Origin: a virus
Reading direction: 5' to 3' (one strand)
Virus record (IMG/VR): IMGVR_UViG_3300042691_024428
Location: 1-61,961 of that record
Length of the DNA: 61,961 nt
Positions 7,066-40,265 of the stretch are shown piece by piece. How positions within the stretch are numbered: position 1 is the stretch's first letter; each line of letters begins with the position of its first letter. The notes below the pieces were generated by a model that searched no databases, was not told the origin of the DNA, and worked only from the letters and a program-made list of their open reading frames with translations. The translations under genes were made by a program, and so were the position numbers.

Positions 7066-10000
7066 TTATACTCCTTGGCCGAAGCCGTTTGCCAGCCAAT
7101 CGACAGTCCGAACGACGCGCACGCCGCCGTTCCGAACGCAGAACGTAAAGCCCGTCGCCGTCTTGGAGACGAGGTCGATGGTATCGCCGGACTGTTGCGC
7201 ATTGATGGTGAAGCCGACCACGGGCGTTTGCCAAAACCGCTGGCTGAACGTGATCGTCGTATCGGCGCCGCTCGACGTTGCCGTGGTGCCGCTCTGGACG
7301 CGCGAGGGAAGCTCGAGTGTGACGACCATGCTGTTGACCTGGATGTTGTAGGCTTGGTCGGCCGTCGTCAGGACGATGCGGAACTGAAAGCCGCGCGCGC
7401 TGATGTTGGCAGCGATGAAGGGCGTCCACGGCCCCCACGCGGGCGAGCCCACCGGGTCATCTTTGGTCGCGCGGTACTCGACCTGCGCGTTGGCATCCGA
7501 TCCGACGACCGCGCCATCCCAGTTATCCCAATCGTCGATGGTCGCCGAACGCGTGTCGAAGAAGTCGTTCGCAAGGAAGCCGCCGACGTTGATCGCGTGC
7601 GTTGCGCGGATCGTATAGACCGCGCCCAGGTCCACCGTGTTCTGGAACAGATAGACGCCACTCGTCGCGACGCCGCCAATGCTGTCCCACGCGCCCTGGC
7701 TGTCCACCGCGCCCCATGCGTCGATGAGGGTTGCGCCGTCGAGTTTGAGAACGCCATCGACCACCGCGACGTTGGTCTTCGTGCCGGGATAGGTCGGGCT
7801 TTCGGTGATCGTGAGAATTTGCTGCATCGCGACGATGTCTGGGAGGTTTGTCGAGATGCTTGCCGCATTCACAGACACGTTGCCCGTGTTGTCGAGCGCC
7901 TTCACCATGTAAGTGCCGGAGGCCGCCGGGATGCTGACCTCGGTCGCGCTGCCGGAAACACCGCCGGGATTGCCAGAGGCAGGCGGAAACAGGTCGATGC
8001 TGTTTGCCCACGACGCGCCGACCAACAGCGGCGACCATCGCGCCAGAACGCGCCCGCCGATCCGAACGTCGGCATCGGTCACGCGCGCCCAGCGGAGGAA
8101 GTTGCTGCCCATCATCTGGACGAGCGTCAGGCCCGCGATATCCTGGGGCGGGGCATAGAGGCCCAAGACCTCCTTCGTCGTGGCTGGCGAATAGGGAGAG
8201 CGCACATTGATTGAATTGATGGCGCGAACCCGGAAATTGTAGGTCGCCGGGGCAAGGTCGTTCAGCGTGACCGATGTTCCAGATTGCGCGGGCAACCGCG
8301 TCCACGTTGCGCTTTCTGCGTCTTTGAACTCCATCTCATAGCCGACAATGAATGCGTCGGTCGGCACATCCCACGAAACGATGGCGCGCGACTTCGTGCC
8401 GCCGCCGCCGTTCGTCTCGTAGGTTTCCTCGGTGATGAGCGGAGCGCCCGGCGACGCAACCGTCCACGGAAGCGCAAGCTTCGTGTCGGGGGCCGGATCG
8501 TTGACCGTCGCATCGCCGCTACTCCAGTCGTAGGCGACGCTGCTTTCCTCCTGCAGCGTTAGATCGACGACGGCATTGTCCACCAGCTTGCGCGAGATGA
8601 TGCGGAACTCTTTGTCCACGAACCCGAAGGTCGGAAGGTTGAGCCGCACCACTGACCAGACCGCAAGCTTCCCGGCCTTTGCGTTGCAGGGCATGTCGAT
8701 GGTGATGCCTTGCCGCGAGCGCTCAAGCAGGATTTTTGCGAGCCGCTGCGCGCGGATCACCTCGGTTGTGAACGGGAACTCGACATCGACTTGAATTTCG
8801 CGCCCGCCGTCTTGGGCGGCATAGGTCGAGTTTTTGACGATGGGAATGTCGGTCTGCTGCCAGCTATCGGACGGGTCGATGAACGTGCCGCGCACCGAGT
8901 TGTAAAGCTCGCGCCGCGCCATGCGCGGGCGGATCGCGATGTCGCCGCGCAGCCAAGTCGCGTCGAGCGTTTCGATGGCGACCTTCGCAGCGCCCGCATA
9001 GAAAAAGTATTGGCCGTCTTGATAGACGAGAACGCCTGCGCAGCAGGTCATCATGTCCTCGGCAACATCGATAGGCTTCTTCGAAAGATCGAAGCTGCCG
9101 TCCATCGTGTAGCGCGGCTGCGCGTTGCCGGTGAGCGTGATCGTTCCGCTGCCAGCGCTCGTGATGTCGATTGCCGTACCGGCCAGGGCGTTCGCGTAGG
9201 TCGTCGCAAGCTGAACTTGCGAGCGGTCATCCTGCGGGATCGTGAAATAATTCGTCGCCGCAGCAAGGCCGCCGGGGATCGTGCCAGTCGATGTGACCTG
9301 AACGCGCGTGCCGCGCTCGAAGCGGTTTTTATTGTCGGCGAACACGATCTTGTTGCCGCCGGTGTCGACAGACGAAGCCGTCGCCGAAACGCCAGCGATG
9401 GCAACGAACTCGTCGCAGATATTGGCCGCCGCGATAAAGCTGGCCTCGTTGATCTCGTCCGGGTCGGCGCCGATGCCGTAGCTTGCGAGGATGTAATCGC
9501 GTACGCAGAGCGCCGGGTTGCGCGTAAACCGCGTGCCCATATCGCGGGGGTCGTAGACCTTCTTGCCGCGCAGCAGCACCTTGAAATTGGGAATGCCGCT
9601 CGGCCAAACGTCCTGCGAATACTTGAGCCGGGCATAGATGTAGGCGATGCCGCGAAGCTCGTGCGTCGAGGTCCACTTGCTACTTTCGGCCGTTAGGTCG
9701 GTATCGACGGTCTGCGAGGTGGTGCCCAGCTTTTTGTTGATGCGGTAGTAGCCTGAGAACCGGCTGTCCGTTTCGACGGTGTCGCTGAAATAGACGAGGC
9801 CAATGTTTTCGACCTCGTGCCCCGCAAGCGCGATGACGAGGTGCAGGAACTCGTTCGACGAGCCGGTGCTGTCGGCATAGACCAGCGTGCCCGATACGAA
9901 CGCCTCGCCATAGACGATGCGGCGCGGCTGCACCGACGAGCGGATAACGCGCTGCCGGTCGCGCGCCTCTTGCGTCAGTGTCGGATTATCTGCGCTTGCT

Positions 10001-10182
10001 TCTTTTGCCCCGCCAAAGCCGCCGCTGATGGCCGAGAACGCGAGCGAGCCGAGGCCCGCAACGATGGCGCCCGCGAGCGCACCCTCGACCAGGGTGAACC
10101 CGAACAAGATGATGCCGCCAGCCGCATAGGCAGAGCCTGCGGCAAAGACGGCTGTGGCGACTGCTGCTACCGCTGGCGGCAT
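7066..10182 (-). CDS. Central tail-tip / host-specificity protein (J-like)
   Basis: The product has 1038 residues. The start used overlaps the upstream stop (ATGA); a longer frame exists but has no support. The protein opens with a glycine/alanine-rich hydrophobic stretch (about 10-60), typical of TipJ proteins. Next come the QPRRIVYGEAFVSG block and the RYTMDGSFDL and LNLPTFGFVDKEFRI regions of the phage tail hub, a fibronectin-III-like domain (about 600-690), and a C-terminal beta domain. J-like proteins close the tail tip, take part in DNA ejection and choose the receptor. The position after the NlpC-like gene agrees. Confidence 0.85.
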   Translation of the reverse strand: MPPAVAAVATAVFAAGSAYAAGGIILFGFTLVEGALAGAIVAGLGSLAFSAISGGFGGAKEASADNPTLTQEARDRQRVIRSSVQPRRIVYGEAFVSGTLVYADSTGSSNEFLHLVIALAGHEVENIGLVYFSDTVETDSRFSGYYRINKKLGTTSQTVDTDLTAESSKWTSTHELRGIAYIYARLKYSQDVWPSGIPNFKVLLRGKKVYDPRDMGTRFTRNPALCVRDYILASYGIGADPDEINEASFIAAANICDEFVAIAGVSATASSVDTGGNKIVFADNKNRFERGTRVQVTSTGTIPGGLAAATNYFTIPQDDRSQVQLATTYANALAGTAIDITSAGSGTITLTGNAQPRYTMDGSFDLSKKPIDVAEDMMTCCAGVLVYQDGQYFFYAGAAKVAIETLDATWLRGDIAIRPRMARRELYNSVRGTFIDPSDSWQQTDIPIVKNSTYAAQDGGREIQVDVEFPFTTEVIRAQRLAKILLERSRQGITIDMPCNAKAGKLAVWSVVRLNLPTFGFVDKEFRIISRKLVDNAVVDLTLQEESSVAYDWSSGDATVNDPAPDTKLALPWTVASPGAPLITEETYETNGGGGTKSRAIVSWDVPTDAFIVGYEMEFKDAESATWTRLPAQSGTSVTLNDLAPATYNFRVRAINSINVRSPYSPATTKEVLGLYAPPQDIAGLTLVQMMGSNFLRWARVTDADVRIGGRVLARWSPLLVGASWANSIDLFPPASGNPGGVSGSATEVSIPAASGTYMVKALDNTGNVSVNAASISTNLPDIVAMQQILTITESPTYPGTKTNVAVVDGVLKLDGATLIDAWGAVDSQGAWDSIGGVATSGVYLFQNTVDLGAVYTIRATHAINVGGFLANDFFDTRSATIDDWDNWDGAVVGSDANAQVEYRATKDDPVGSPAWGPWTPFIAANISARGFQFRIVLTTADQAYNIQVNSMVVTLELPSRVQSGTTATSSGADTTITFSQRFWQTPVVGFTINAQQSGDTIDLVSKTATGFTFCVRNGGVRVVRTVDWLANGFGQGV

Positions 10183-10601
10183 CAGACCCTCCACGCGGTC
10201 AGGCCATCCGCAAGTGGGATGACGCCCAAGCCAACAGGGGTGACGGCCGCGATTGCTTCGCCGATGCAAATGCCGGTGCCGGGACGGCCTTCGGCATCGC
10301 GATAGAGAACAATGTCGCCGCGCTGCGCCATCAGGACGCTATCCAGGCCGGGGCCAAGCGACGAGTGGAAGACCTCGACGATATCCTTGAAGCCGCTGCG
10401 GCGCAGCGCCAGGAGCGCGCCGTGGGCGGTCGAATAGGTGCCGCGCCACTGCGCCAACGGATCGACGCCCGTCATCTGCTCGACGACGCTTGCCGCAAAC
10501 AGCAAGCAATCATGCTCGCCCCATTCGAACGGCTTGTCGCGCGCGGCCTCAATAGCTGCGTTCAGCCGATGCGGCCAATCCTCGCGCCGGGTAAAGATCA
10601 T
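10182..10601 (-). CDS. DUF6950-type tail-assembly protein (NlpC/P60 position)
   Basis: The product has 139 residues. The ATG at 10601 overlaps the cupin gene stop by 4 bases. The motif FEWGEHDCLLFAASVVEQMTG (Cys near residue 32) and the later RGDIVLYRD block match the DUF6950 family. That family takes the place of the NlpC/P60 cysteine peptidase in many tail-tip clusters. It likely trims peptidoglycan or helps assemble the tip. The candidate Cys is present and a partner His (GTGICIGEAI region) is less clear, so catalysis is uncertain. Confidence 0.75.
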   Translation of the reverse strand: MIFTRREDWPHRLNAAIEAARDKPFEWGEHDCLLFAASVVEQMTGVDPLAQWRGTYSTAHGALLALRRSGFKDIVEVFHSSLGPGLDSVLMAQRGDIVLYRDAEGRPGTGICIGEAIAAVTPVGLGVIPLADGLTAWRV

Positions 10602-12204: not shown

Positions 12205-12828
12205 CTACTGAAACGCCTCCACAAATTCGAGGTCCATGCCGCCGAGGAGCGGGGGCGTCACGGCATTCTCGCCTTGGGTGTCGTCCTTCAGGCGCATGAT
12301 GCAACTCGGGCTGTTAACCGTCAGAAGCACGTTGTCGGCAGGCGCTGTGCGGATGGGCGGCATGAACGCGAGCGTTGCGTTGCCGCCTGCGTCGCTGTTG
12401 ACGTCAGCGGTGATGATTTTCAATTCACGGCCGAAGCCGCTGTCGAAGTGGAAATAGTCGCCGCGCTTGAGGATGCCGGTCTGCGAAGGCGTCCATCCGT
12501 CCGTGACGAGCGAGCGCCCGGTTTGATTGCTGCCGTTGACCGCAGGCGTGCCGGTTGCAACCCCGCGAGGGACCGCCGCGTGGACCGGCCCGAAATAAAA
12601 CCGACCCGCAGCCCCGGAAAGCTGTGCTTTCCATCCCTCAAGATCGCGCCACTGATACGGCTCCAACGTGTCCCACGTCATAGAGCCATACCAGCGCGCG
12701 CCGGGCATCTCGACGGTTTGCACCGCGCCCACCAGCGGCGACGTAAACGACTGCGTGTTGCCCGACATATTCCAACGGAATGAGGACGGGTTCATGAAGC
12801 CGGGCAGAAAGGAGATTGGCGTCGGCAT
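12205..12828 (-). CDS. Distal tail protein in the DUF2460 position
   Basis: The product has 207 residues. It has an N-terminal beta motif (SFRWNMSGNTQSFTSPLVGA, then VEMPGARWYGSMTW) followed by a second beta domain. It directly follows the tape measure gene, so it is likely the distal tail (Dit-like) protein that joins tail tube to tip. The sequence is not close to the textbook TIGR02217 family as far as I can tell, so the assignment rests mostly on gene order. It ends one base before the start of the next gene. Confidence 0.62.
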   Translation of the reverse strand: MPTPISFLPGFMNPSSFRWNMSGNTQSFTSPLVGAVQTVEMPGARWYGSMTWDTLEPYQWRDLEGWKAQLSGAAGRFYFGPVHAAVPRGVATGTPAVNGSNQTGRSLVTDGWTPSQTGILKRGDYFHFDSGFGRELKIITADVNSDAGGNATLAFMPPIRTAPADNVLLTVNSPSCIMRLKDDTQGENAVTPPLLGGMDLEFVEAFQ

Positions 12829-21600: not shown

Positions 21601-21984
21601 TTAGACGATGGCCGCGCCAGCGTTGAGGGCGACGGTGATGACTTCGTTCGCGTTGGCGGCAGCTTCCAAGGCGACGCCGATCACGTTCGAACCGGCCGTG
21701 GCCGCCGTGATGATGCGGCCGTCCGCGCCCGCCATGACTTCGGAGCCAACGGTGATCGCAGCACCGGCAACCGCCTTGCTGACGCCCACCATCACGATGT
21801 CGGCGGGCTGGCCGCTCGCGGGCTTGTTCTGCAGGATGCCGATGGTCGCCTGACCGGCGGCGTTGGTGAGATTGACGGCGAAAGCCGCCGTGACGCGCAC
21901 TGCGCGGAACTGATTGCTTGCAGCCGAAAGATCGGCCGCTGCGGTGCAGATGCCGATATTGATGCCAGGGGTCTGAACAGCCAT
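21601..21984 (-). CDS. Capsid decoration protein (DUF2190-like)
   Basis: The product has 127 residues and is rich in Ala, Val and Gly: MAVQTPGINIGICTAAADLS, IGILQNKPASGQPADIVMVG, VAGAAITVGSEVMAGADGRI. This is the pattern of DUF2190 proteins that trim capsid surfaces, located directly before the capsid gene. It probably stabilises the shell. Confidence 0.85.
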   Translation of the reverse strand: MAVQTPGINIGICTAAADLSAASNQFRAVRVTAAFAVNLTNAAGQATIGILQNKPASGQPADIVMVGVSKAVAGAAITVGSEVMAGADGRIITAATAGSNVIGVALEAAANANEVITVALNAGAAIV

Positions 21985-24015: not shown

Positions 24016-25833
24016 CTACCTTCCTCCTTGGGTGGGGCGGGTAACATAGTCGGTGTAGCGCCGCATCGCCACCGCATCATCGGTCTTGATTGTGCCGGAC
24101 CAAGACGGGCCGCCAAGGATGAGTTCCTTGCCGATGCTGCGGTCCCCGGTTTTTGCGTCGGCAAGCTTCCACATCGAGCGCGGATCGTTCGACGACAGGA
24201 TTGACCGAAGCTTCGCCGCGTCGGCAGCCATGATATCGCTTCCCGAGCGCGACATTTGAAGGCTGCGCAATTTTGCAGCTGCGTGTTCTTTAACGCGTCG
24301 CCAGCCAGCTTGCTCAGGAGTGAAGCCGTACTTGGCCCAAGCATACATGCCCACGTCAATGTTGGCCGTAACGCCAACCTCCTTCACGCCGAGCGATTGG
24401 TAGACGCCCATCGACGTGCGAAAGAACTCCTTGCCCGCGCCGTTGCCCTGGCGCCCCGCCTTGAAATAGGCGTGATAGACCGTGAGTTCGCCAGCGTTGT
24501 TTCGGGAGAAGGTGCGACGGATCGACGTGCCATCGCGCCCCTGGAACGAAATGGCCGCTTCGCGTTCGGTGACGGTCATGCTCATAGCGAACGTAGTGCC
24601 CGGATAGTCGGCAATCATCGTCTCGCCAAGGCGCCGCAGCGTGTTCTTGTCGTGACTATCGCCGAACATCCGCATCACATGTAGGTCCGAGCCTGTGACC
24701 TTTACGGCGTGAATGTTGGCGCCGACCACTGCGCGCGTGCGGAATGCCTTGTTCGAGTTCAACTCCGCATCGACACGCGCGTTTGCCGATGCGCGCCCTT
24801 CGGCTTCGCGTTGCAGTGCTTTTGCCGCGCGCACCTTGGCCTCCGCGCGCATGCGCTCCGCGTTCGCACGCATCTCGGGCGTGTTGAGGTGCGCGATAGC
24901 CGCGTCCGCGTAGGCGTTGACCTCCTTCGAGTTGCGGCCAGACGATGCGGGGCGGGCGTTTGCACGCACAGCGGCAAGGTCGCCTGCCTCCAGCGCAGCC
25001 TTGATCCGGTTTGCGCGCGCGAGCGCTGCCGGGTTCTTAATGCCGAGAGGCATCCGAGGAGCTTCCCCGACGCGGTTGGCCGCCGGGCTAATTTCCGGGG
25101 TAACGGCAGGGGGCGGTGCAGCCGCCGCCCGTGCTTGGCTTGCTTGAAGCTGGGCCGCTGCGCTGGCCGCGTTGCGCGATGCCATCGCGGCAAGGTTTTG
25201 GTCGTCTTCGATGCGCTGGACGTTGCGCGGCCCGCGCGTGTTCGTAACCGGCGGGGATGTGCCCGCCATGCCAGCCGCATTCAACAGCGCCTGCTTATAG
25301 TCGTCGGCACGGGTCTGATATGTGTTCGACCGCGACGTAGGGATTGCCTGGATGGCTGCGATATCGCCGCGTTCGGCGTGCGTGCGCAGCGCGCGCATCT
25401 TGTTGACGGCCGAGCGCCCGGCGGTCTGCTGGCCCCAGGCCGCAGTATCGGGCTTGGCAACGGCCAGCATGCGCGCGTGGGCATCGGGGTGGGGCATACG
25501 GCTTGCCGCCGCCCGGTCGGCGTTGTGGGGCATCCCGCCGGGCGCTGTGGCCCCGCCAGAGCCACCCATGTTGCCAAGGCCGTCGCTGATTGAGGTGCGC
25601 GGCCCACCGCCCCCGCCGCCAGCGGTCCACTTGCCGTCCGCGTCGCGGGGCTGTTCGGCGTTGAAGCCCTTGCGCATGTCGGCCAGCGCATCGTCGAAGG
25701 ACTTGGCCGTTCGAACGGTCTGCTCCGCGCGCACCTGGGCGAACGTCCGCGCCTTGCGCTTGCCGCCGCCGGGCACATGCACGTCGCTGAGGCCAGCATC
25801 CTTGAGGACTTCGTTGAACATCCGAGCGGTCAT
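24016..25833 (-). CDS. Structural protein with C-terminal acetyltransferase-like (GNAT) fold
   Basis: The product has 605 residues; the ATG at 25833 overlaps the upstream stop (ATGA). The N-terminal part is basic and low complexity (PGGGKRKARTF, then SDGLGNMGGSGGATAPGG), the middle (about 100-400) is helical and Ala/Arg-rich. Residues 430-555 carry a GNAT-like pattern: AYFKAGRQGNGAGKEFFRTS (acetyl-CoA loop type QxxGxG), then GVTANIDVGMYAWAKYGFTP. It lies between the MuF and protease genes. A virion-borne acetyltransferase or an ejected protein are possible. Catalysis is not shown. Confidence 0.6.
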   Translation of the reverse strand: MTARMFNEVLKDAGLSDVHVPGGGKRKARTFAQVRAEQTVRTAKSFDDALADMRKGFNAEQPRDADGKWTAGGGGGGPRTSISDGLGNMGGSGGATAPGGMPHNADRAAASRMPHPDAHARMLAVAKPDTAAWGQQTAGRSAVNKMRALRTHAERGDIAAIQAIPTSRSNTYQTRADDYKQALLNAAGMAGTSPPVTNTRGPRNVQRIEDDQNLAAMASRNAASAAAQLQASQARAAAAPPPAVTPEISPAANRVGEAPRMPLGIKNPAALARANRIKAALEAGDLAAVRANARPASSGRNSKEVNAYADAAIAHLNTPEMRANAERMRAEAKVRAAKALQREAEGRASANARVDAELNSNKAFRTRAVVGANIHAVKVTGSDLHVMRMFGDSHDKNTLRRLGETMIADYPGTTFAMSMTVTEREAAISFQGRDGTSIRRTFSRNNAGELTVYHAYFKAGRQGNGAGKEFFRTSMGVYQSLGVKEVGVTANIDVGMYAWAKYGFTPEQAGWRRVKEHAAAKLRSLQMSRSGSDIMAADAAKLRSILSSNDPRSMWKLADAKTGDRSIGKELILGGPSWSGTIKTDDAVAMRRYTDYVTRPTQGGR

Positions 25834-26018
25834 TGGCCGGTCCATTTTGCGAGGTGAGGCAAGAGCAGAACGAGCGCTGCGCCCGCCGCGACGTAAGCGA
25901 TGCGCGAGCCAACCGCTTCGCACCATCCAACCCAACGGCCAGCCGCGAAGCCGCCGCGCCATCCTTTCGAGTAGGAGTGGATCGTGTCGAGCCGGGGCGG
26001 GATCGGTTCGTGGTTCAT
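25830..26018 (-). CDS. Small membrane protein
   Basis: The product has 62 residues with one membrane segment at about 38-55 (IAYVAAGAALVLLLPHL). Overlaps by 4 bases with genes on both sides, showing it is translated as part of the operon. Function unknown. Confidence 0.63.
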   Translation of the reverse strand: MNHEPIPPRLDTIHSYSKGWRGGFAAGRWVGWCEAVGSRIAYVAAGAALVLLLPHLAKWTGQ

Positions 26019-27181
26019 TGGCGAGGCATGATCGAGCGGCCAGCGCCCGGCATGAATTGCGGGATGCCGCTGTCCAGCTCTTCGATGCGAACGACGACGG
26101 CGCAGCGGCAGTTGATCGTCTCGCCGCCAGGGGCTTCGGGGTCGTGCGGGTGCATGATCGTGCCGCCGCCGGGCAGCTTGAACGGCTCGTCAATCCCAAC
26201 GCCGCCCGCATTGATCGACGGCATATCGCGATGGCTATCGCGCGTGCGGCCATCGTCTGTCGAAACCCAATACCGGCGGAATGCGCCGGGCGCCACGTTG
26301 CTGCCGCGCGCGACTTGCCGCCAAGCCTCGGCTGCGCCGTTCGACACCGCGCGCATGCTTTCCGTTCGGGCGATTGTTTCCGAGCGCATGCGCAACAGCC
26401 GCTGGCGATAGCCCTCGACCAACTTGTCGACCTTGGCCGGGTCCATCGCCTCGCCGATCCGGGCCGTCGCATTGATGCTGCGCTCTGCGTTGCCGCCGAT
26501 GCTGTACGACGCGGCCTGCCCCCACTTGCCGTTGACCAGCGCCTTGCGATAGTTCGCGAGCGCCTTGGCCTGCTGCGGGGTGAGGCCGATCACCTGCTTG
26601 ATTTGGCGTGCGGTCGTGCGCGGGTTGTCGCCGCTGATGCTTTGCGCGCCGATGACCTCGCGGATGGCGCCTTGCGTCTGCCGCGAGATGTTCGTGATGA
26701 GGTCGTAAGCATAGGCTCGAGCGTATTCCGTCGCGCGCGGGTTCATCGGATCGAAACGCACCGCAACCTTCAAGCCGGTGAGGCCGGACGCCGCCTGCTG
26801 CGCAGTGAGCGTGCCCGCCGCTTGCCAGTTCTCGTTGATGGCGTCGATCATGCCGCCAAGCTCGACCTCGAACTTGTCGAGGCCGGTCGCCGCAAGCACG
26901 AACTCCCAACGCCCGGTCGCGATGGCATCGGCGAGCGTGTTCAGGCCCGCCTCGTCTTGGATAGCGTTCACAGCCCGAATGAATGCGTTGCGGATTTTGG
27001 GTTCGAACTTTTGCCCGAGCGCGAGCAGCGCGTCCTGCTGCGCCTTGAACGATGGCGATACCTTGAAGATTGCTTCGAGTGTGCTGGTGGAGTGGCGGGC
27101 CGCAACCGCCACTCCACCACGCCGTCCAAGGGCGGTCCCCTCACCCTTCACGACGACGCTTGCGCTGGGAACTCGGATCAT
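26015..27181 (-). CDS. Head morphogenesis protein (SPP1 gp7 / MuF type)
   Basis: The product has 388 residues from the ATG at 27181 (a GTG three codons upstream is possible). The C-terminal region has the family mark: TIARTESMRAVSNGAAEAWR, RYWVSTDDGRTRDSHRDM, HPHDPEAPGGETINCRCAVV. MuF proteins are minor head proteins found in the portal region and are often ejected with DNA. Here seven other structural genes separate it from portal, which is not the usual order. Confidence 0.88.
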   Translation of the reverse strand: MIRVPSASVVVKGEGTALGRRGGVAVAARHSTSTLEAIFKVSPSFKAQQDALLALGQKFEPKIRNAFIRAVNAIQDEAGLNTLADAIATGRWEFVLAATGLDKFEVELGGMIDAINENWQAAGTLTAQQAASGLTGLKVAVRFDPMNPRATEYARAYAYDLITNISRQTQGAIREVIGAQSISGDNPRTTARQIKQVIGLTPQQAKALANYRKALVNGKWGQAASYSIGGNAERSINATARIGEAMDPAKVDKLVEGYRQRLLRMRSETIARTESMRAVSNGAAEAWRQVARGSNVAPGAFRRYWVSTDDGRTRDSHRDMPSINAGGVGIDEPFKLPGGGTIMHPHDPEAPGGETINCRCAVVVRIEELDSGIPQFMPGAGRSIMPRQ

Positions 27182-27389
27182 CGACTGCACCTTGCTGCGA
27201 CGGCAAAAGAAAACGGGGCGGGCATTGCGTGACGCGGCCAGAGGCCACGGCTTCGTCTATAAGTCTTTTTTCGTCCTCTGGCGAGATGGCCGTGAGTTTC
27301 TTTTTGCCGGAACGGTAAAACGCGCCAAGCCATCGCCCCTTTATTTCGGCGACGGCCGCCGCGCGCTTGTCGGTCATCGGCTTCGCCAC
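27141..27389 (-). CDS. Small basic protein overlapping the MuF gene start
   Basis: The product has 82 residues, start GTG at 27389 (ATG at 27377 is an alternative). The core (AAAVAEIKGRWLGAFYRSGK, then ISPEDEKRLIDEAVASGRV) is helical; the end is basic (SSQRKRRREG). It overlaps the MuF gene by 41 bases. Function unknown. An operator-like site is embedded in it. Confidence 0.6.
   Translation of the reverse strand: MAKPMTDKRAAAVAEIKGRWLGAFYRSGKKKLTAISPEDEKRLIDEAVASGRVTQCPPRFLLPSQQGAVDDPSSQRKRRREG
27303..27319 (+). promoter_or_regulatory. Operator-like 17-mer, site 8
   Basis: TTTGCCGGAACGGTAAA, one arm change, inside the 82-residue gene, upstream of MuF. Unlike most leftward sites its centre is A-side on the plus strand and its frame in the gene differs from the others. 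Confidence 0.5.
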
Positions 27390-27393
27390 AATG

Positions 27394-27744
27394 CTATGCG
27401 ATCAACGCCTGCACGATGGTTGCGGTCCCGACCAGAACCGTCGACTTCTTGCCCGCCGCATCGACCAACTCGGCTTCGTGGTAGTAGGCCCCGGCCGCAA
27501 TAGTCGGGGTGTCCCCTTGCGCGATAGTGACCTCGAACACGCCCGTGAGCGGGGCGGCGTTCGTGATCCCCGCGCCGAGCGTCTTGGACAGCAATGCCGT
27601 CCCCTTGGCGGCCTTGGCCATCGCCCACTTGATCGACGAGGCCCCGGTCAAATCCTTGACGGTTCCGTCCGGGTTTTTGACGGTCACTTGCAGGACAAGA
27701 TCGTCGCCCTGATAGAGCGTGAAATTTTGGCTGGTGGCTGTCAT
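27394..27744 (-). CDS. BppU-like N-terminal-domain structural protein
   Basis: The product has 116 residues from the ATG at 27744. The pattern FTLYQGDDLVLQVTVKNPDG, LTGASSIKWAMAK, VTIAQGDTPTIAAGAYYHEA matches the N-terminal domain of phage baseplate upper proteins, an Ig-like fold. In lactococcal phages BppU holds receptor-binding proteins. Here it is in the head gene region, between portal and MuF, so a head fibre anchor may be more likely. Confidence 0.66.
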   Translation of the reverse strand: MTATSQNFTLYQGDDLVLQVTVKNPDGTVKDLTGASSIKWAMAKAAKGTALLSKTLGAGITNAAPLTGVFEVTIAQGDTPTIAAGAYYHEAELVDAAGKKSTVLVGTATIVQALIA

Positions 27745-28196
27745 AGCGCGCCCTTTGCTTCGCCTGAGAGTTGGGTTGCCGTGCTGAATGTCCCGACCAG
27801 CGAGACCGGCGGGTTGAATAGGCCCGCCAAAGCGGAAGTCGGCCCCGCCTGCGCGGTCAGGGAGGCGGGTGCGCCAACCGTACCGGCCAGCGCCCGCGCG
27901 CGCGTGTGCGCCCCGGAAAGCGCCACGGCGACCCCGAATTGCCCGGCCAATGCGACCCGGATAGCCGGGGAGCCGCCAAGGCCCAACGCCGCCGCGCCCC
28001 GGAAGCCGCCAAGGGCCGCCGCCGTAGGGGCGAAGGTGCCCGTCAACGCCGCGCGCAAGGGCGACAGCGACGCCTGCAAGGCGACGACTTGCCGGAAGGT
28101 GCCCGCGATAGCCTGCTTGAAAATTGCGGCCGCACTGGCAATCCGGCCAAGCCAACTGCCGAGGCTGTTGCCCTGATATCGGCCAAAGTAGCTCAC
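27741..28196 (-). CDS. Structural protein of short repeats
   Basis: The product has 151 residues with a GTG start in a GTGA overlap. After an N-terminal MSYFGRYQGNSLGSWLG-like piece (first residue V-coded) it consists of about nine imperfect 13-16 residue repeats of the form ALxGxFxxxxAL (for example AALTGTFAPTAAALGGF). Such repeats form beta solenoids or triple-stranded fibre shafts. It probably belongs to a fibre with its neighbours. No family recognised. Confidence 0.62.
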   Translation of the reverse strand: MSYFGRYQGNSLGSWLGRIASAAAIFKQAIAGTFRQVVALQASLSPLRAALTGTFAPTAAALGGFRGAAALGLGGSPAIRVALAGQFGVAVALSGAHTRARALAGTVGAPASLTAQAGPTSALAGLFNPPVSLVGTFSTATQLSGEAKGAL

Positions 28197-29053
28197 GACG
28201 CATCCACCAGCGTAATCGTGCGCGTGCCCGCGTTATAGGTTGCCGTCACGCGGGTGATCGTGCCGTCCTTGGACTTGAACGTCATGGTCGAGCCTTCCAG
28301 CCCTTCGCCGTTGCCCAGCAGGACGGCGCGCAAGAGGCGCATCGTTTCGCGGAGCGTTTCGCCGTCCTCGATAATGCCAAGCAGCGGGTCGCCCGCAGCG
28401 CCCGCCGCGTTCAGCTTCTCGCCCATCGAACCGGCCACGTCGTTTTCAGACGCGAGGCTGTTCCAGACGGCCTTCGCGATGCCGGTAGGGGTAAGGCCGC
28501 TTTCTTCGGTCGTGGCGACGATGCTGCCGTAGCCCTGAGATTGGGCCGAGGCATTGACCGTCACGACCGCGCTTGCGACGCCGTTCAGTGTAGCGCTGGG
28601 GACAACCGATGCCGTGAATGCGATGGCTGCGTTCGCAACGCCGCTGCGGAGTGCCGCCGGAGCAGCGGACGCGGAGAAAGCGATGGTCGCGTTCGCAACG
28701 CCCGCCGCGATCAACTGGCCTGCGGCCACGCCCGTGATCGTTACCGTTGCTGTCGCCGCCGAGCTACGCCCTTGCGACGACACCGCGCTTGCGTTGACGT
28801 CGATCCGGCTTGCGCGCGACTTGATGGCACCTCCGACGATCCCAAGGGACCAAGAGGTCGGCGCACGCGAACCGGAGGGCCGCCCGAACGGACGCGATTG
28901 CGCAACGTCGGCGACCTGAACCGCCGCGTTGGCATGGAAGTTCCGCATCTGCCCGGCCGAATGGAACGCGGCACGATTGGCCCCGTATGCCCCGCCGAAC
29001 CGAAAGGCGTAAGGACCACCGCCCCCACGCATGCCGTTGCCGATCAATGCCAT
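28193..29053 (-). CDS. Glycine-rich, repeat-bearing structural (fibre) protein
   Basis: The product has 286 residues. The N-terminus is rich in Gly and aromatic residues; residues 105-165 are three 20-residue repeats (GVANATIAFSASAAP and variants). The C-terminus (GIAKAVWNSLASENDVAGSM, then MTFKSKDGTITRVTATY) is a small beta module seen in many phage structural proteins. The repeats are visible as a 60-bp direct repeat in the DNA. Probably a fibre or decoration on head or neck. Confidence 0.65.
   Translation of the reverse strand: MALIGNGMRGGGGPYAFRFGGAYGANRAAFHSAGQMRNFHANAAVQVADVAQSRPFGRPSGSRAPTSWSLGIVGGAIKSRASRIDVNASAVSSQGRSSAATATVTITGVAAGQLIAAGVANATIAFSASAAPAALRSGVANAAIAFTASVVPSATLNGVASAVVTVNASAQSQGYGSIVATTEESGLTPTGIAKAVWNSLASENDVAGSMGEKLNAAGAAGDPLLGIIEDGETLRETMRLLRAVLLGNGEGLEGSTMTFKSKDGTITRVTATYNAGTRTITLVDAS
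28561..28740 (-). repeat. Three tandem 60-bp direct repeats
   Basis: Copies begin at 28561, 28621 and 28681; the first 22 bases of the last two differ at two positions (CGATGGCTGCGTTCGCAACG and CGATGGTCGCGTTCGCAACG). They encode 20-residue beta repeats. Such repeats may change in number by recombination and alter fibre length. Confidence 0.72.
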
Positions 29054-29220
29054 CAGGGTTGGCTCCTGATTTGGTCGGCAAGCTCCTGCTGGCCTGCCTC
29101 CTCGATCTTTTGCAGGGTCTCGTCGCGCTGCGCTTCGGCGATGATCGTCGCGAGCGCGTACGAGTTGCCGCGCCAGCGCGGATAGTCGTCAACGATTGCC
29201 TTGAGGTCTTTGGCGTTCAT
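29053..29220 (-). CDS. Small helical protein
   Basis: The product has 55 residues: MNAKDLKAIVDDYPRWRGNS, then ALATIIAEAQRDETLQKIEE. Both ends overlap neighbours by 4 or 3 bases (ATGA form), so it is translated in the operon. Function unknown; possibly a small chaperone or adaptor for the neighbouring structural genes. Confidence 0.65.
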   Translation of the reverse strand: MNAKDLKAIVDDYPRWRGNSYALATIIAEAQRDETLQKIEEAGQQELADQIRSQP

Positions 29221-30386
29221 CATGCCCACCCTACGTCGAGGTTCGCTGTGAACGGGGAGTTCGCGCTGGTCGCGCCGGTCGAATAGATCAAGAAGCCGAG
29301 ACAGGCGTTGTCCGGCACCTCGGGGAACGACGGGAACTGGTTCACGAAGTCGCGTTCCGAGTACATGCCGGATGCCGGAATGAGAACGTCCCCGAGCGAC
29401 TTAACGATGCACAGCGCGCCAACGCCCGTCCCCGTGTAGGCAGTGCCGCCCGACCACGTGAAGCTCTGGATGGACTGAATGCCGGTGTCGGCACCCTGAC
29501 GCGGCAGGTATGGGCCATAACGACCAGCCGCGTTGCCCGAGTGCAGGATGCGCGTGGCGTAGGCGTCGGCCGTAGCCCCGAGAGTGACGCCGCCCTGGAA
29601 CGCACGGCCGGGGGTTCCGGCCGTGTTTGTGTAGCTGGACGCCGAAAGGGTCGGGCCGCCTGCGGTCGGCTGCGTCTGCGCGACAAACATCGCCTCGCAG
29701 CCTACGCCGTTTTGATAGCGCGGGTTCTGGATTGCCATCGTGTGCGTGCCAGTGCCCGCATCGGTAAAGGCAATGGTCGCGCCCGCGACGGCGTTCTCCA
29801 GCGACGTTGCAACGCGACCAGTCGTTGCGCCTGCGCGCACCAGCCAATAGTCCGTCGCAAGAGCAAGGCCCGTAGGGAGTGCGCCGCCCGAGTTGGTGAA
29901 CCGGACCTTGGAGAGGTTCGTGAAGTCGTTTGCGTACGTCAGCAAGAGGCCAGCCGACGACGATGCGACGACCGTGTTCGAGTTGATGAGGACGCGAGAG
30001 CCGGTGCCGGTGATGTTCGCGCCGGAGAGCCGGTAATAGCCGACCAGATCGACGATCTTGACCTGCCACGGCGCTCCGGCAGCGGCGATGATGTTCGCGC
30101 CGAAGTTCAGGCACAGCTTCTTGGCGGAAGGCCCGACGAGACCGTTGTGCTGCGGGCCAATGAACACCGTGCCGTCGCCCGCGAGTTCGGACGGCGACTG
30201 CAGCACGAGGTCTTGCGCTGCCGGAAACGTGCCCGCGTTTGGATAGCCAGGAAGGGTGAACGTCGCGTGCCATCCAGCCGTCGCGGTGTGCGCCGGGTTG
30301 ATGAGCTTGTTCATCTCGATCCGCTTGTACTGGCCAAGCTGGGTGATCTTGGAGATGAGTTCGTCTTGAGAGCCATAGCCGGGCAT
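29220..30386 (-). CDS. Structural protein of unknown type
   Basis: The product has 388 residues from ATG at 30386. Begins MPGYGSQDELISKITQLGQY. The body has beta-rich, Gly/Thr/Ser patterns, with SRVLINSNTVVASSSAGLLL and GTGTHTMAIQNPRYQNGVGC. It is the largest of the inserted structural block between portal and MuF. Its pairing with the next gene (30388-31251) suggests the two form a complex. Family not recognised. Confidence 0.68.
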   Translation of the reverse strand: MPGYGSQDELISKITQLGQYKRIEMNKLINPAHTATAGWHATFTLPGYPNAGTFPAAQDLVLQSPSELAGDGTVFIGPQHNGLVGPSAKKLCLNFGANIIAAAGAPWQVKIVDLVGYYRLSGANITGTGSRVLINSNTVVASSSAGLLLTYANDFTNLSKVRFTNSGGALPTGLALATDYWLVRAGATTGRVATSLENAVAGATIAFTDAGTGTHTMAIQNPRYQNGVGCEAMFVAQTQPTAGGPTLSASSYTNTAGTPGRAFQGGVTLGATADAYATRILHSGNAAGRYGPYLPRQGADTGIQSIQSFTWSGGTAYTGTGVGALCIVKSLGDVLIPASGMYSERDFVNQFPSFPEVPDNACLGFLIYSTGATSANSPFTANLDVGWA

Positions 30387-30387
30387 T

Positions 30388-31251
30388 TTATTTGCTCCAT
30401 GCGAAGTGGGCGTTGCCGGTGAAGATGCCGCCAGCAACCGATCCGGCGGGATTGCCGATGAAGTTCAAGAAAGCACCGTCAAAGACGCGCGGGAGGCCCG
30501 GCTTCATCGTGACGTACTCAAGCTCGTAGGGCGTATTGACCTCGCGCATCACCGTCGAGCCGAGCGCGTTGACCAGCACCAGCGAGAACAAGCCGCCGAT
30601 GGGCGTGATGACCTCCACATCCGTGATGCGCCGAACCCCATTGCCGTCGCCCCCCATCGGAAGAAACGGCGCACCGTTCGACGCGCTGTTCGGGTCGCCT
30701 GTAAGGCACGATGCGATGTTCGTGATCGCCGTGTTGACATTGATGATCGGGCTGACCTGCGCCACGCCGTTTGCGTCGTCGTAGTAATAACGGAACGATC
30801 CGCCGCCGGTCGTCGGGGCCGAGACGATAGCCATCACGCGCACGCCGAGGCCATCGGTTGAACGCGTCAAAGGCATTGCGCTTGGGTTCGTGAGGGTTTG
30901 AATTTCACCTGCTGCGTCGCCGTCGATGAACGGGTAGAACATCAAGTAATCCAAGAGAGTTACAGGCCCCAGCATCGCAGCCGTCGGCGTGACGACGAGC
31001 AGCTTGGCGAGGTGCTTTGAATAGGGAGCTTTGTCGTCGCCGTGGAATACACCCTTAAACGGGTCAAGGAACGACGCCTCGAACGGAGACGCAGCATAGA
31101 AGTTCGGGACCGGGTTCCCGCCAGCCATAGAATAGTCGACCCAGCCGTTCGCGGTGGACGCCTGCGACGGCACCTTGCGGAAGGTGCAGAAGCTGGTGCG
31201 CCCCTCGCGTTCGGCCTCACCGAGTTCGTTGAGCGACAGGAACCCAACCAT
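30388..31251 (-). CDS. Structural protein, partner of the preceding gene
   Basis: The product has 287 residues. It begins MVGFLSLNELGEAEREGRTS and has an extended beta-rich middle (LLDYLMFYPFIDGDAAGEIQ, GGSFRYYYDDANGVAQVSPI). The stop is one base from the next start, and the ATG overlaps the upstream stop. Gene order and composition suggest a virion component; no motif for an enzyme. Family not recognised. Confidence 0.66.
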   Translation of the reverse strand: MVGFLSLNELGEAEREGRTSFCTFRKVPSQASTANGWVDYSMAGGNPVPNFYAASPFEASFLDPFKGVFHGDDKAPYSKHLAKLLVVTPTAAMLGPVTLLDYLMFYPFIDGDAAGEIQTLTNPSAMPLTRSTDGLGVRVMAIVSAPTTGGGSFRYYYDDANGVAQVSPIINVNTAITNIASCLTGDPNSASNGAPFLPMGGDGNGVRRITDVEVITPIGGLFSLVLVNALGSTVMREVNTPYELEYVTMKPGLPRVFDGAFLNFIGNPAGSVAGGIFTGNAHFAWSK

Positions 31252-31661
31252 CAGACGACCGTGATCGTCAGGTCGCCAGCGGCGACGATGGGCGTGATGT
31301 TCAGCGAGATATCAAGGTCGTCGACCATGTCGGCAAGGATTGCCATGTTGACCGCGCCCGAGGGCGTATCGCAAATGATGACGTGCGTCGCGGTCTGCGT
31401 TGCCCCGGCATCCGTGCGCTTGCCCCATTGAAGCTGGTTTGCATTGCTGCGCGTGGCGCCAGTGCCTGAATACGCGGACGCTTTCGTGAGGGGGATGCGC
31501 GCGTAGCCGGTGTAATTGCACTCGCCCGTCATCGGCGCGGCTTCGTTCTCCGCGCCTTGAATGAGGGCCGCATACGCCGTTGCGCCAGCGCGCCACGACG
31601 GGTCCGTGCCCTTGAGGAGCATGTCGATAGTCGCGCTTTCGGCTGCATTGTCGAGGCTCAT
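31251..31661 (-). CDS. Small tail-fibre-like structural protein
   Basis: The product has 136 residues. The blocks LIQGAENEAAPMTGECNYTG, YARIPLTKAS and NQLQWGK resemble a small family often annotated as phage tail fibre protein, a beta module with a YxGY-type motif. It sits just after the portal gene. Likely a virion surface component (see finding on the structural block). Confidence 0.66.
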   Translation of the reverse strand: MSLDNAAESATIDMLLKGTDPSWRAGATAYAALIQGAENEAAPMTGECNYTGYARIPLTKASAYSGTGATRSNANQLQWGKRTDAGATQTATHVIICDTPSGAVNMAILADMVDDLDISLNITPIVAAGDLTITVV

Positions 31662-31667
31662 GGTCTG

Positions 31668-33080
31668 CTACTCCTTTTGAGTTCCGTTCTTGGGCGCGGC
31701 CGTACCGGGGGCCGCGATGGGTTCGGGCTTGTCGTCGGTCGGCTTGGCTTCCGTCTTGCCCGCGCCGGTGCCCGCCTCGGGCGTTGCGGACGGATCGGGT
31801 TCGGGAAGGTTGCCAGCGTCGCGCAGATACTTTTCGGTCGCCGGGTCAGGGAACAGCGGCATGCCCGCCGCCGAGAGCGCCTGGACGTAGGCGCCGAGTT
31901 CGGCAAGGTTCGGCTTCTCGATATCGCCGTGCGTCAAGATGGGCGTCGCGTTGACCTTGAGGCCGTTCAGCTTGAGCAAGCGAGGGATGGCGTGGCGGTT
32001 GAAGATGTCGCACACGCTATCGAGGAACGATCCGATGGCCGTCGCGAAGATATCGGTCTTGTCCGACGAGAGGGCGAACGACCCGACCTTCTCGTGGCCC
32101 AGCAGGATGAAGTCGGCGAGCATCGTCATTGCGATGCGCTGGTCGTACCGCTGGATGATCTTGTCGACGTCGAACTGGCGCGAGCCGCCGGACGACATGA
32201 GCGTCAGGTCGAAGAGCGGCTTGCCGTTCTTGTCCACGTCCGAAGGCAGCACGATGCCCTCGCCCTCGTCGCGTTTTACCGAGCGGACGATGCCCTTCAT
32301 GATGTTGTAGACGACCCGCTGCTCCGGCGTGGCCGAGCGGCTCATGTACGCCGAGGGCACGCGCGCGACGGGCAGGCCGGCAAGATCGCGCTCCGCGCCG
32401 ATGGCCTCGACTTCGAGCAGCTTTTTTTGGAAGAGGTACGGGACCGCCGCGTTGCGCAGGATCGACCGGCCCTCGGGGTTGTTCTTGGCCGTCGATGCGC
32501 GGAACAGCAGCCCGCGTTCGATGGGGATGATGCGGATGCCGCCGGTCCACGGCTGCTGGACGAAGCCGCGCACGCCGCCGTCCTCGTCGATGATCCAGCG
32601 CAGCAGCGTGTCTTGGCTGCGCCCGGCGATCTTGCGCCAGCCGATCTTGCCGTCGTTGTAGCGCGAGCGCTTGGACGGGTCTTGCTGTTCGGGGCCGCGC
32701 CGTTCTTTGTAGACCAACTCGTGAAACGCGAAGCCATAGTCGAGGAACGTAAAAATCTCGGCGATGGTGTCGTCCCAGGATGCGGACATATCGTCCATGC
32801 ACTCCTGCAGGAATTGCGCGTTCGCCCGGTCATCCGGCTTGTCGCTCGCGGCTTCGATGCGCCACGGCACCTGCCGCATCAACATGCGAATGGCGAACAG
32901 CGTCGCGCCAACGACCGGATGGTTGTCGCGCATCTCCATGTAGACGCGCTGGCCCTTGGTCCCGATAAGCTGCGAAAGGAACTCTTCGCTGATCGTGCCG
33001 GAGAAGCGACGGAGGCCGGTATCGCCAAGCTCCGCGAGGATATCCTTCGCGACGTCTTGCTGATTGATGGTCTCGGACAT
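31668..33080 (-). CDS. Portal protein
   Basis: The product has 470 residues. MFAIRMLMRQVPWRIE-type stem region (LFAIRMLMRQVPWRIEAASD), YGFAFHELVYKERRG, GLLFRASTAKNNPEGRSILR, and the QRVVYNIMKGIVRSVKRDEG block match DUF935/Mu gp29-like portals. The C-terminal 50 residues are Pro/Glu rich and disordered. It follows the terminase large gene directly with a single-base gap. Confidence 0.88.
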   Translation of the reverse strand: MSETINQQDVAKDILAELGDTGLRRFSGTISEEFLSQLIGTKGQRVYMEMRDNHPVVGATLFAIRMLMRQVPWRIEAASDKPDDRANAQFLQECMDDMSASWDDTIAEIFTFLDYGFAFHELVYKERRGPEQQDPSKRSRYNDGKIGWRKIAGRSQDTLLRWIIDEDGGVRGFVQQPWTGGIRIIPIERGLLFRASTAKNNPEGRSILRNAAVPYLFQKKLLEVEAIGAERDLAGLPVARVPSAYMSRSATPEQRVVYNIMKGIVRSVKRDEGEGIVLPSDVDKNGKPLFDLTLMSSGGSRQFDVDKIIQRYDQRIAMTMLADFILLGHEKVGSFALSSDKTDIFATAIGSFLDSVCDIFNRHAIPRLLKLNGLKVNATPILTHGDIEKPNLAELGAYVQALSAAGMPLFPDPATEKYLRDAGNLPEPDPSATPEAGTGAGKTEAKPTDDKPEPIAAPGTAAPKNGTQKE

Positions 33081-40188: not shown

Positions 40189-40265
40189 TGCGGGATAGAG
40201 CAGTCCGGTAGCTCGTCAGGCCCATAACCTGAAGGTCGTCGGTTCAAATCCGTCTCCCGCTCCCA
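40189..40265 (+). tRNA. tRNA-fMet (CAT), initiator type
   Basis: 77 nt that fold as a tRNA: acceptor TGCGGGA / TCCCGCT with T1-T72 unpaired, D stem GAGC / GCTC, anticodon stem TCAGG / CCTGA around CCCATAA (anticodon CAT), T arm GTCGG TTCAAAT CCGTC, and encoded CCA (after a C discriminator). The unpaired 1-72 position and A11-T24 pair are marks of the bacterial initiator tRNA. T50-T64 is mismatched and only two of three usual GC pairs are in the anticodon stem. It may be functional, or a degenerate copy. Confidence 0.85.

Follow-up and report, generated by a model that had tools for sequence, protein, structure and literature searches.

A portal-linked gene block in a siphophage-type virus probably encodes an accessory fibre of the GP4 fibre I type

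Introduction

What do seven genes encode when they lie between the portal and MuF genes of a siphophage-type virus? The question was raised by IMG/VR record IMGVR_UViG_3300042691_024428, a complete virus of 61,961 bp with a Mu-type portal, the whole of which is called the window below. An initial annotation had placed seven genes and an 82-residue open reading frame (ORF) between the portal gene (33080-31668) and the MuF gene (27190-26015), and all of them were found there, on the minus strand. We name the seven genes A to G, in their order from the portal, and the small ORF H. The most probable product of the block is a composite accessory fibre, similar to GP4 fibre I and carried at the junction of head and tail. 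The evidence for a fibre is good, and A to G together most likely supply everything needed to build flexible fibres in which beads are strung along a thread. The genes concerned, with the evidence for each, are the following.

31668-33080, minus strand: portal protein (Mu type), upstream border; Pfam PF06074 (Portal_Mu) E=3e-34, phrog_113 E=3e-86
31251-31661, minus strand: gene A, 136 residues, homologue of the GP4 fibre I bead by Pfam PF23140 and by profile comparison with PDB 8jou_a
30388-31251, minus strand: gene B, 287 residues, beta protein by AlphaFold2, cassette member and paralogue of C
29220-30386, minus strand: gene C, 388 residues, cassette member, paralogue of B with an inserted domain (phrog_30390), candidate distal (host-facing) part
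29739-29996, minus strand: inserted domain of C, optional, residues 131-216; phrog_30390 E=1.9e-4
29053-29220, minus strand: gene D, 55 residues, putative helper, rarely conserved (two relatives)
28193-29053, minus strand: gene E, 286 residues, repeat protein, proposed rope (20-residue period, AlphaFold2)
28520-28819, minus strand: repeats of E, five 20-residue units, residues 79-178 (periodicity, 60-bp DNA repeats)
27741-28196, minus strand: gene F, 151 residues, second repeat protein by autocorrelation, possible shaft or second rope
27394-27744, minus strand: gene G, 116 residues, small beta domain resembling the BppU N-terminal domain, candidate anchor; phrog_1084 E=1.5e-14
27141-27389, minus strand: gene H, 82 residues, of doubtful membership in the module; no match in family library searches
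26015-27190, minus strand: MuF-type head morphogenesis protein, downstream border; PF04233 (Phage_Mu_F) E=2.8e-10, phrog_3517 E=6e-66

Two starts were corrected, that of C to 30386 (388 residues), replacing a mechanically chosen TTG, and that of G to 27744 (116 residues), within a longer ORF at 27394-28203.

Results

Gene A and the bead of GP4 fibre I

The product of gene A matched the Pfam family PF23140, "Podophage GP4 fiber I protein gp80", with E=6.2e-12, above the curated cut-off, and a profile of seven A relatives matched PDB 8jou_a, a virion-associated protein of GP4, with E=3.7e-12. Judged by sequence, A is a demonstrated homologue of gp80 of the Ralstonia podophage GP4, the bead of its chain-like fibre I. 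In GP4, this fibre reportedly consists of gp80 dimers chained by a rope protein and anchored via a 15-fold adaptor at the tail vertex. PDB entry 8JOU contains 10 chains of gp80 and three of gp77, the fibre-tail adaptor, which we read as one fibre of five gp80 dimers for each fifth of a 15-mer ring. The collar symmetry of GP4 is 15:12 (PMC10925440), and a GP4 protein has been described as a dimeric fibril that links an adhesin to the tail-nozzle collar (PMC13243795). Homologues of both gp80 (gp56) and gp77 (gp59; PF23148, 8jou_D) are encoded by the GP4-like Burkholderia phage BcepMigl. The bead homologue of phiM5 was found in the particle proteome, according to a note in its record. When A was used as a single sequence to scan viral contigs, no relatives were recovered, and an alignment query was needed.

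GP4 gp80-like proteins were also seen in 392 Mycobacterium phage records. In Mycobacterium phage Oline (L096) the gene, annotated as hypothetical, is located at 7980-8369, after the minor tail genes. Another portal-linked fibre set was seen in Roseobacter phage CRP-6 (L105, 5808-9537), a phage with a related portal: the gene immediately downstream of the portal encodes a 123-residue protein and is followed by two fibre genes, one of them collagen-like. The C-terminus of the 123-residue protein resembles the bead family by eye, and the bead profile did not match it.

An ordered cassette shared by many phages

A profile scan of IMG/VR for A detected at least 290 loci with a relative, of which the best 80 were kept. 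Cassettes were counted with one profile each for the A, B, C and E families, at the 47 loci that had A and at least 4.5 kb downstream of it. B, C and E were all present at 43 of these, always arranged as A-B-C-E with a single coding strand (43/43), and removal of near-duplicates left the full cassette at 16 of 20 loci. The set was seen in genomes as different in size as those of a podophage of 45 kb (MW202692) and an uncultured phage of 642 kb (LR756502), and also in a phage of 197 kb (L009) and an alphaproteobacterial contig (L102); Pseudanabaena phage PA-SR01 and Pam2 are cultured carriers. A core with this gene order is shared by many bacterial viruses that are otherwise unrelated. This bead, and neck fibres as a concept, were already known; for the cassette, the B/C family and the family of 20-residue repeats, no description was found in the literature searched.

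The cassette was also linked to portal genes in several phage types. At 16 loci a checked portal, belonging to one of five PHROG portal families, was encoded no more than three genes upstream of A, and at 14 of the 16 A starts -3 to 14 bp from the portal stop. A further portal adjoins A in L044, and a connector or portal-type protein (phrog_332) is encoded two genes upstream of A in L037. On the tree of B, portal types were intermixed on well supported branches, which indicates that the cassette has been exchanged between phages.

In the window, spacing read from the sequence is 6 bp between portal and A; A and B, like D and E, overlap by 1 base, and E and F, like F and G, by 4. With such overlaps of 1 to 4 bases or gaps of a few bases, A to G look like one operon with portal and MuF, so that a fibre could be made alongside the portal vertex. 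The premise that portal and MuF genes are usually adjacent held in part. They overlap directly in Microbacterium phage ValentiniPuff, a relative by portal, whereas two small genes separate them in RDJL Phi1 and R6L, relatives by MuF; Ad1 was recognised between the two genes in both of these phages, and Hc1 in RDJL Phi1. P106B likewise has Ad1 and Hc1 upstream of MuF. In the window Ad1 and Hc1 are encoded after the major capsid gene, and the seven genes between portal and MuF are therefore extra relative to ValentiniPuff, RDJL Phi1 and R6L.

B and C, two beta-rich paralogues

B and C are paralogues. The AlphaFold2 model of B is mostly beta, with a predicted local distance difference test score (pLDDT) of 91 and a predicted template modelling score (pTM) of 0.90. 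The closest folds, with template modelling scores (TM) up to 0.95, belong only to uncultured phage proteins. Viral jelly-roll capsid proteins, retrieved by Foldseek from the PDB with low E-values, were rejected as homologues (TM at most 0.24). As the PDB offers B nothing else than these, at TM of about 0.2, no solved relative of B is known. A PDB sequence search with the B, C, E and G families gave no credible matches, and a scan of genome contigs with B as a single protein gave one relative only.

The length of B is nearly constant (mostly 276-297 residues) and that of C variable (mostly 288-442 residues). The inserted domain of C, phrog_30390 (residues 131-216, E=1.9e-4), was found as well in the tail-tip J protein (window 9130-9387, E=2.2e-10), a hint that two sites of host contact on the same virion have exchanged domains. 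A variable protein that takes up extra domains would suit a host-facing tip. In the 197-kb phage L009 (5894-10344) the payload family has expanded locally, with B and four consecutive C-type copies between the genes for bead and rope.

E, F and D

The 60-bp repeats reported in gene E were confirmed as three copies at 60-bp spacing. In the protein, a periodicity of 20 residues was detected (z=3.7, p=0.008), and this period was significant in 41 of 57 E relatives; the count for other proteins encoded at these loci was 4 of 300. Of 22 relatives, 19 have a repeat region of about 100 residues, or some five units; in the other three it measures 41, 127 and 154 residues, the first two equal to about 2 and 6 units. 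Modelled as a single chain with AlphaFold2, E reached a pLDDT of 44 overall and of 25-32 across the repeats, which argues against a single-chain solenoid that folds by itself and is compatible with a chain that becomes ordered only on a partner. A 20-residue period was also found in proteins encoded beside other bead genes (BcepMigl gp57 and PBC5 orf12, with a 10/20 period in phiM5 gp18), none of which has detectable sequence homology to E. It is this shared repeat pattern, not homology, that suggests a rope role for E.

A period of 20 residues is also typical of beta-solenoid coils. E might thus be a trimeric beta-solenoid or spike with its repeats as coils, a structure that a single-chain model would miss and that is compatible with a neck fibre. 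We regard this as doubtful, though not negligible: the repeats were unstructured in the single-chain model, and the length of the repeat region is nearly constant, with two of the three outliers close to 2 and 6 units.

Autocorrelation of F gave a best lag of 10 (z=4.9) and a second signal at lag 20 (z=3.1). F had no homologues outside the same virus and could not be aligned with phiM5 gp18, though the N-termini look similar by eye. A 9.4-kb contig (L013, IMG/VR sample 3300008108) that carries the F-to-MuF end of the block, with a 100% identical MuF protein, is a second record of the same virus. Relatives of D were found in L017 and L032 only.

G, a candidate anchor

G had been described as BppU-like. 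The likeness was borne out only loosely, by its assignment to phrog_1084 (PHROG_1084, E=1.5e-14) and by a match to a haloarchaeal virus protein annotated as a BppU N-terminal domain, but not by Pfam, in which G had no match. Domains resembling G were found near the bead gene in L043, L009 and PA-SR01 (profile comparison, E=4e-5, probability 70%), each time with a short or collagen-like gene between the G-like domain and the bead. This recurring layout of small beta domain, linker, bead and payload suggests an anchor role for G. Scanning for G with A9 returned the same virus only.

Comparison with known systems

The block resembles GP4 fibre I in its bead, and the GP4-like phage BcepMigl in that a protein with a 20-residue period is encoded beside the bead gene. 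It differs from GP4 in lacking a homologue of gp77 and in its setting, a Mu-type portal in a siphophage-type genome. The B, C and E families were not detected in the GP4-like region of BcepMigl.

Alishewanella siphophage LSH1 carries an extra structural module, gp34-gp35-gp36, which is present in the virion and optional in its relatives; it comprises a GP4-like bead, a small immunoglobulin-like protein and a payload with a poorly predicted stretch that puzzled the authors (PMC13243795). Compared by description, the parts list matches that of the block. The LSH1 module differs in its place, behind the lysis genes, and in its payload, a beta-helix resembling a lyase (PMC13243795). In the block, two paralogous beta proteins fill the payload slot, the repeat protein has its own gene, and the whole is portal-linked. 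Genes of Slicko01 considered as LSH1-like partners proved to be the wrong genes and gave no signal.

The bead-chain neck fibre of Anabaena myophage A-1(L), gp82-gp81-gp80, self-assembles before docking and works in a similar way, with an anchor, repeated beads, a larger terminal bead and five fibres on a 15-fold neck ring; its beads, unlike the dimers proposed here, are modelled as trimers (PMC10966104). Family profiles and window proteins gave no significant match to A-1(L) gp80, gp81 or gp82. The tip of the A-1(L) neck fibre does not bind the host, which limits any role assigned to a fibre made by the block. In DEV (Schitoviridae), 15 N-terminal beta-barrels of gp53 form a 15-fold collar that carries five fibres (PMC10925440). 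By description this collar is a model for a possible role of G, with the difference that the DEV collar domain is fused to a long fibre.

Discussion

In the fibre that we propose, A would form the repeating beads, as dimers. E, perhaps helped by F, would serve as a flexible rope whose five 20-residue units hold the bead dimers in a string, and F and E together would tether the fibre. B and C may be beta-rich subunits of its outer part, and the tip that touches host or glycan is likely to be C, into which extra domains can be inserted. The small beta domain G is probably the clamp that holds the fibre at the neck. Besides what the tail fibres provide, such a fibre may give extra reach or surface contact. 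Among the observations in favour of this reading are that the five gp80 dimers per fibre read from 8JOU are paralleled by the five repeat units of E, and that the window has its own complete tail set.

Several points weigh against it. The block is known here from genes alone. A portal of the five checked families was within three genes of A at only 16 of the 51 loci with enough upstream sequence; the remaining loci had no assignable portal, so the linkage is common, not universal. An early weak score between E and BcepMigl gp57 was lost in profile comparison, leaving periodicity alone in common. By Pfam the block contains no adaptor of the gp77 type (PF23148), and G is not detectably related to gp77 (hhalign of the two families, probability 0.5%). 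Finally, wider relatives of the bead may sit in tail regions, as in mycobacteriophage Oline.

The last point bears on the site of attachment, which had been deduced from the location of the genes. Location alone is no proof, because the gp80-like gene of Oline comes after minor tail genes and the LSH1 module after lysis genes; for the same reason attachment at the neck is something that we infer. Of the "head or neck fibres" put forward initially, neck (collar) fibres are favoured by the homology of A to gp80 and by the portal-linked cassette, and head fibres proper are not.

Alternatively, the same fibre might sit at the tail tip or on the baseplate, where G would bind the distal tail protein as the BppU N-terminal domain does. 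The resemblance of G to proteins annotated with that domain and the position of the Oline gene speak for this arrangement. It is nevertheless unlikely: the block (27394-31661) is packed with portal and MuF, far from Dit (12205-12828) and J (7066-10188), whereas the genes of siphophage tail-tip fibres would be expected in the company of Dit and J, where the tail module ends. Moreover, cassette and portal are linked in phages of several unrelated types, among them podophages, which have no long tails, and GP4 fibre I is anchored at the tail vertex. Even less probable is a role for A as decoration (cement) of the capsid, with the other proteins as fibres of the head surface. The weak match of A to phrog_240, labelled head protein, and the annotation of some gp80 relatives as "head protein" or "major capsid protein" would agree with it, but the solved homologue, GP4 gp80, is a fibre protein (PF23140), a separate decoration-like gene is present at 21601-21984 (weak phrog_122 match), and the cassette order and repeat partner fit a chain-like fibre. 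That the block consists of passenger or anti-defence genes acting outside the virion is hardly credible, even with D, F and H lacking functional relatives and the virus known only as a genome, since proteins homologous or equivalent to A are part of the virion in GP4 (structure), phiM5 (record note) and LSH1 (mass spectrometry, PMC13243795) and the gene order is conserved and tied to head genes.

Beyond the neck fibre favoured here, we tentatively advance a more general possibility. A-B-C-(D)-E may be a neck-fibre cassette of wide occurrence that passes between phages whose portals are unrelated. The count of 20-residue units in the rope would fix the number of bead dimers, and with it fibre length, as a molecular ruler; B and C would then be a duplicating, domain-gaining family of tips with no solved relative. 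This makes a countable prediction, namely that rope repeat units equal bead pairs per fibre.

Fibres of the GP4 type are known in detail from one podophage, and the accessory module of LSH1 was left unexplained by its authors. To these the block adds a conserved four-gene core, whose bead gene is found at no fewer than 290 IMG/VR loci, and proposed functions for three families that had no annotation in the libraries consulted. Phages of different build may exchange neck fibres as they do tail fibres, a suggestion that bears on phage-host contact.

Other features of the window

The head part of the minus strand runs from the small and large terminases (assigned by position and sequence) through the Mu-type portal, A to G and H to MuF. 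MuF is followed by a GNAT-like protein (by eye), a protease-like protein, a protein of no assigned function in the position of a scaffold and a decoration- or scaffold-like protein. Then come major capsid, Ad1, Hc1, Neck1, tail terminator, tail tube or minor tail protein and chaperone and, last, tape measure, Dit, a tail protein, J and distal fibres; the complete siphophage tail set is thus encoded outside the block. The GNAT-like domain, recognised by eye, is the C-terminal part of a long alanine-rich protein encoded at about 24016-25730, between MuF and the protease-like gene, an unusual gene to find inside a head operon. At the start of the record (120-970), an apparent C-terminus of a tyrosine recombinase is followed by a small excisionase-like protein (by eye), which suggests a temperate phage and a record that ends at an attachment site. 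The phage also encodes a tRNA-Met (CAT) at 40189-40265, on the plus strand.

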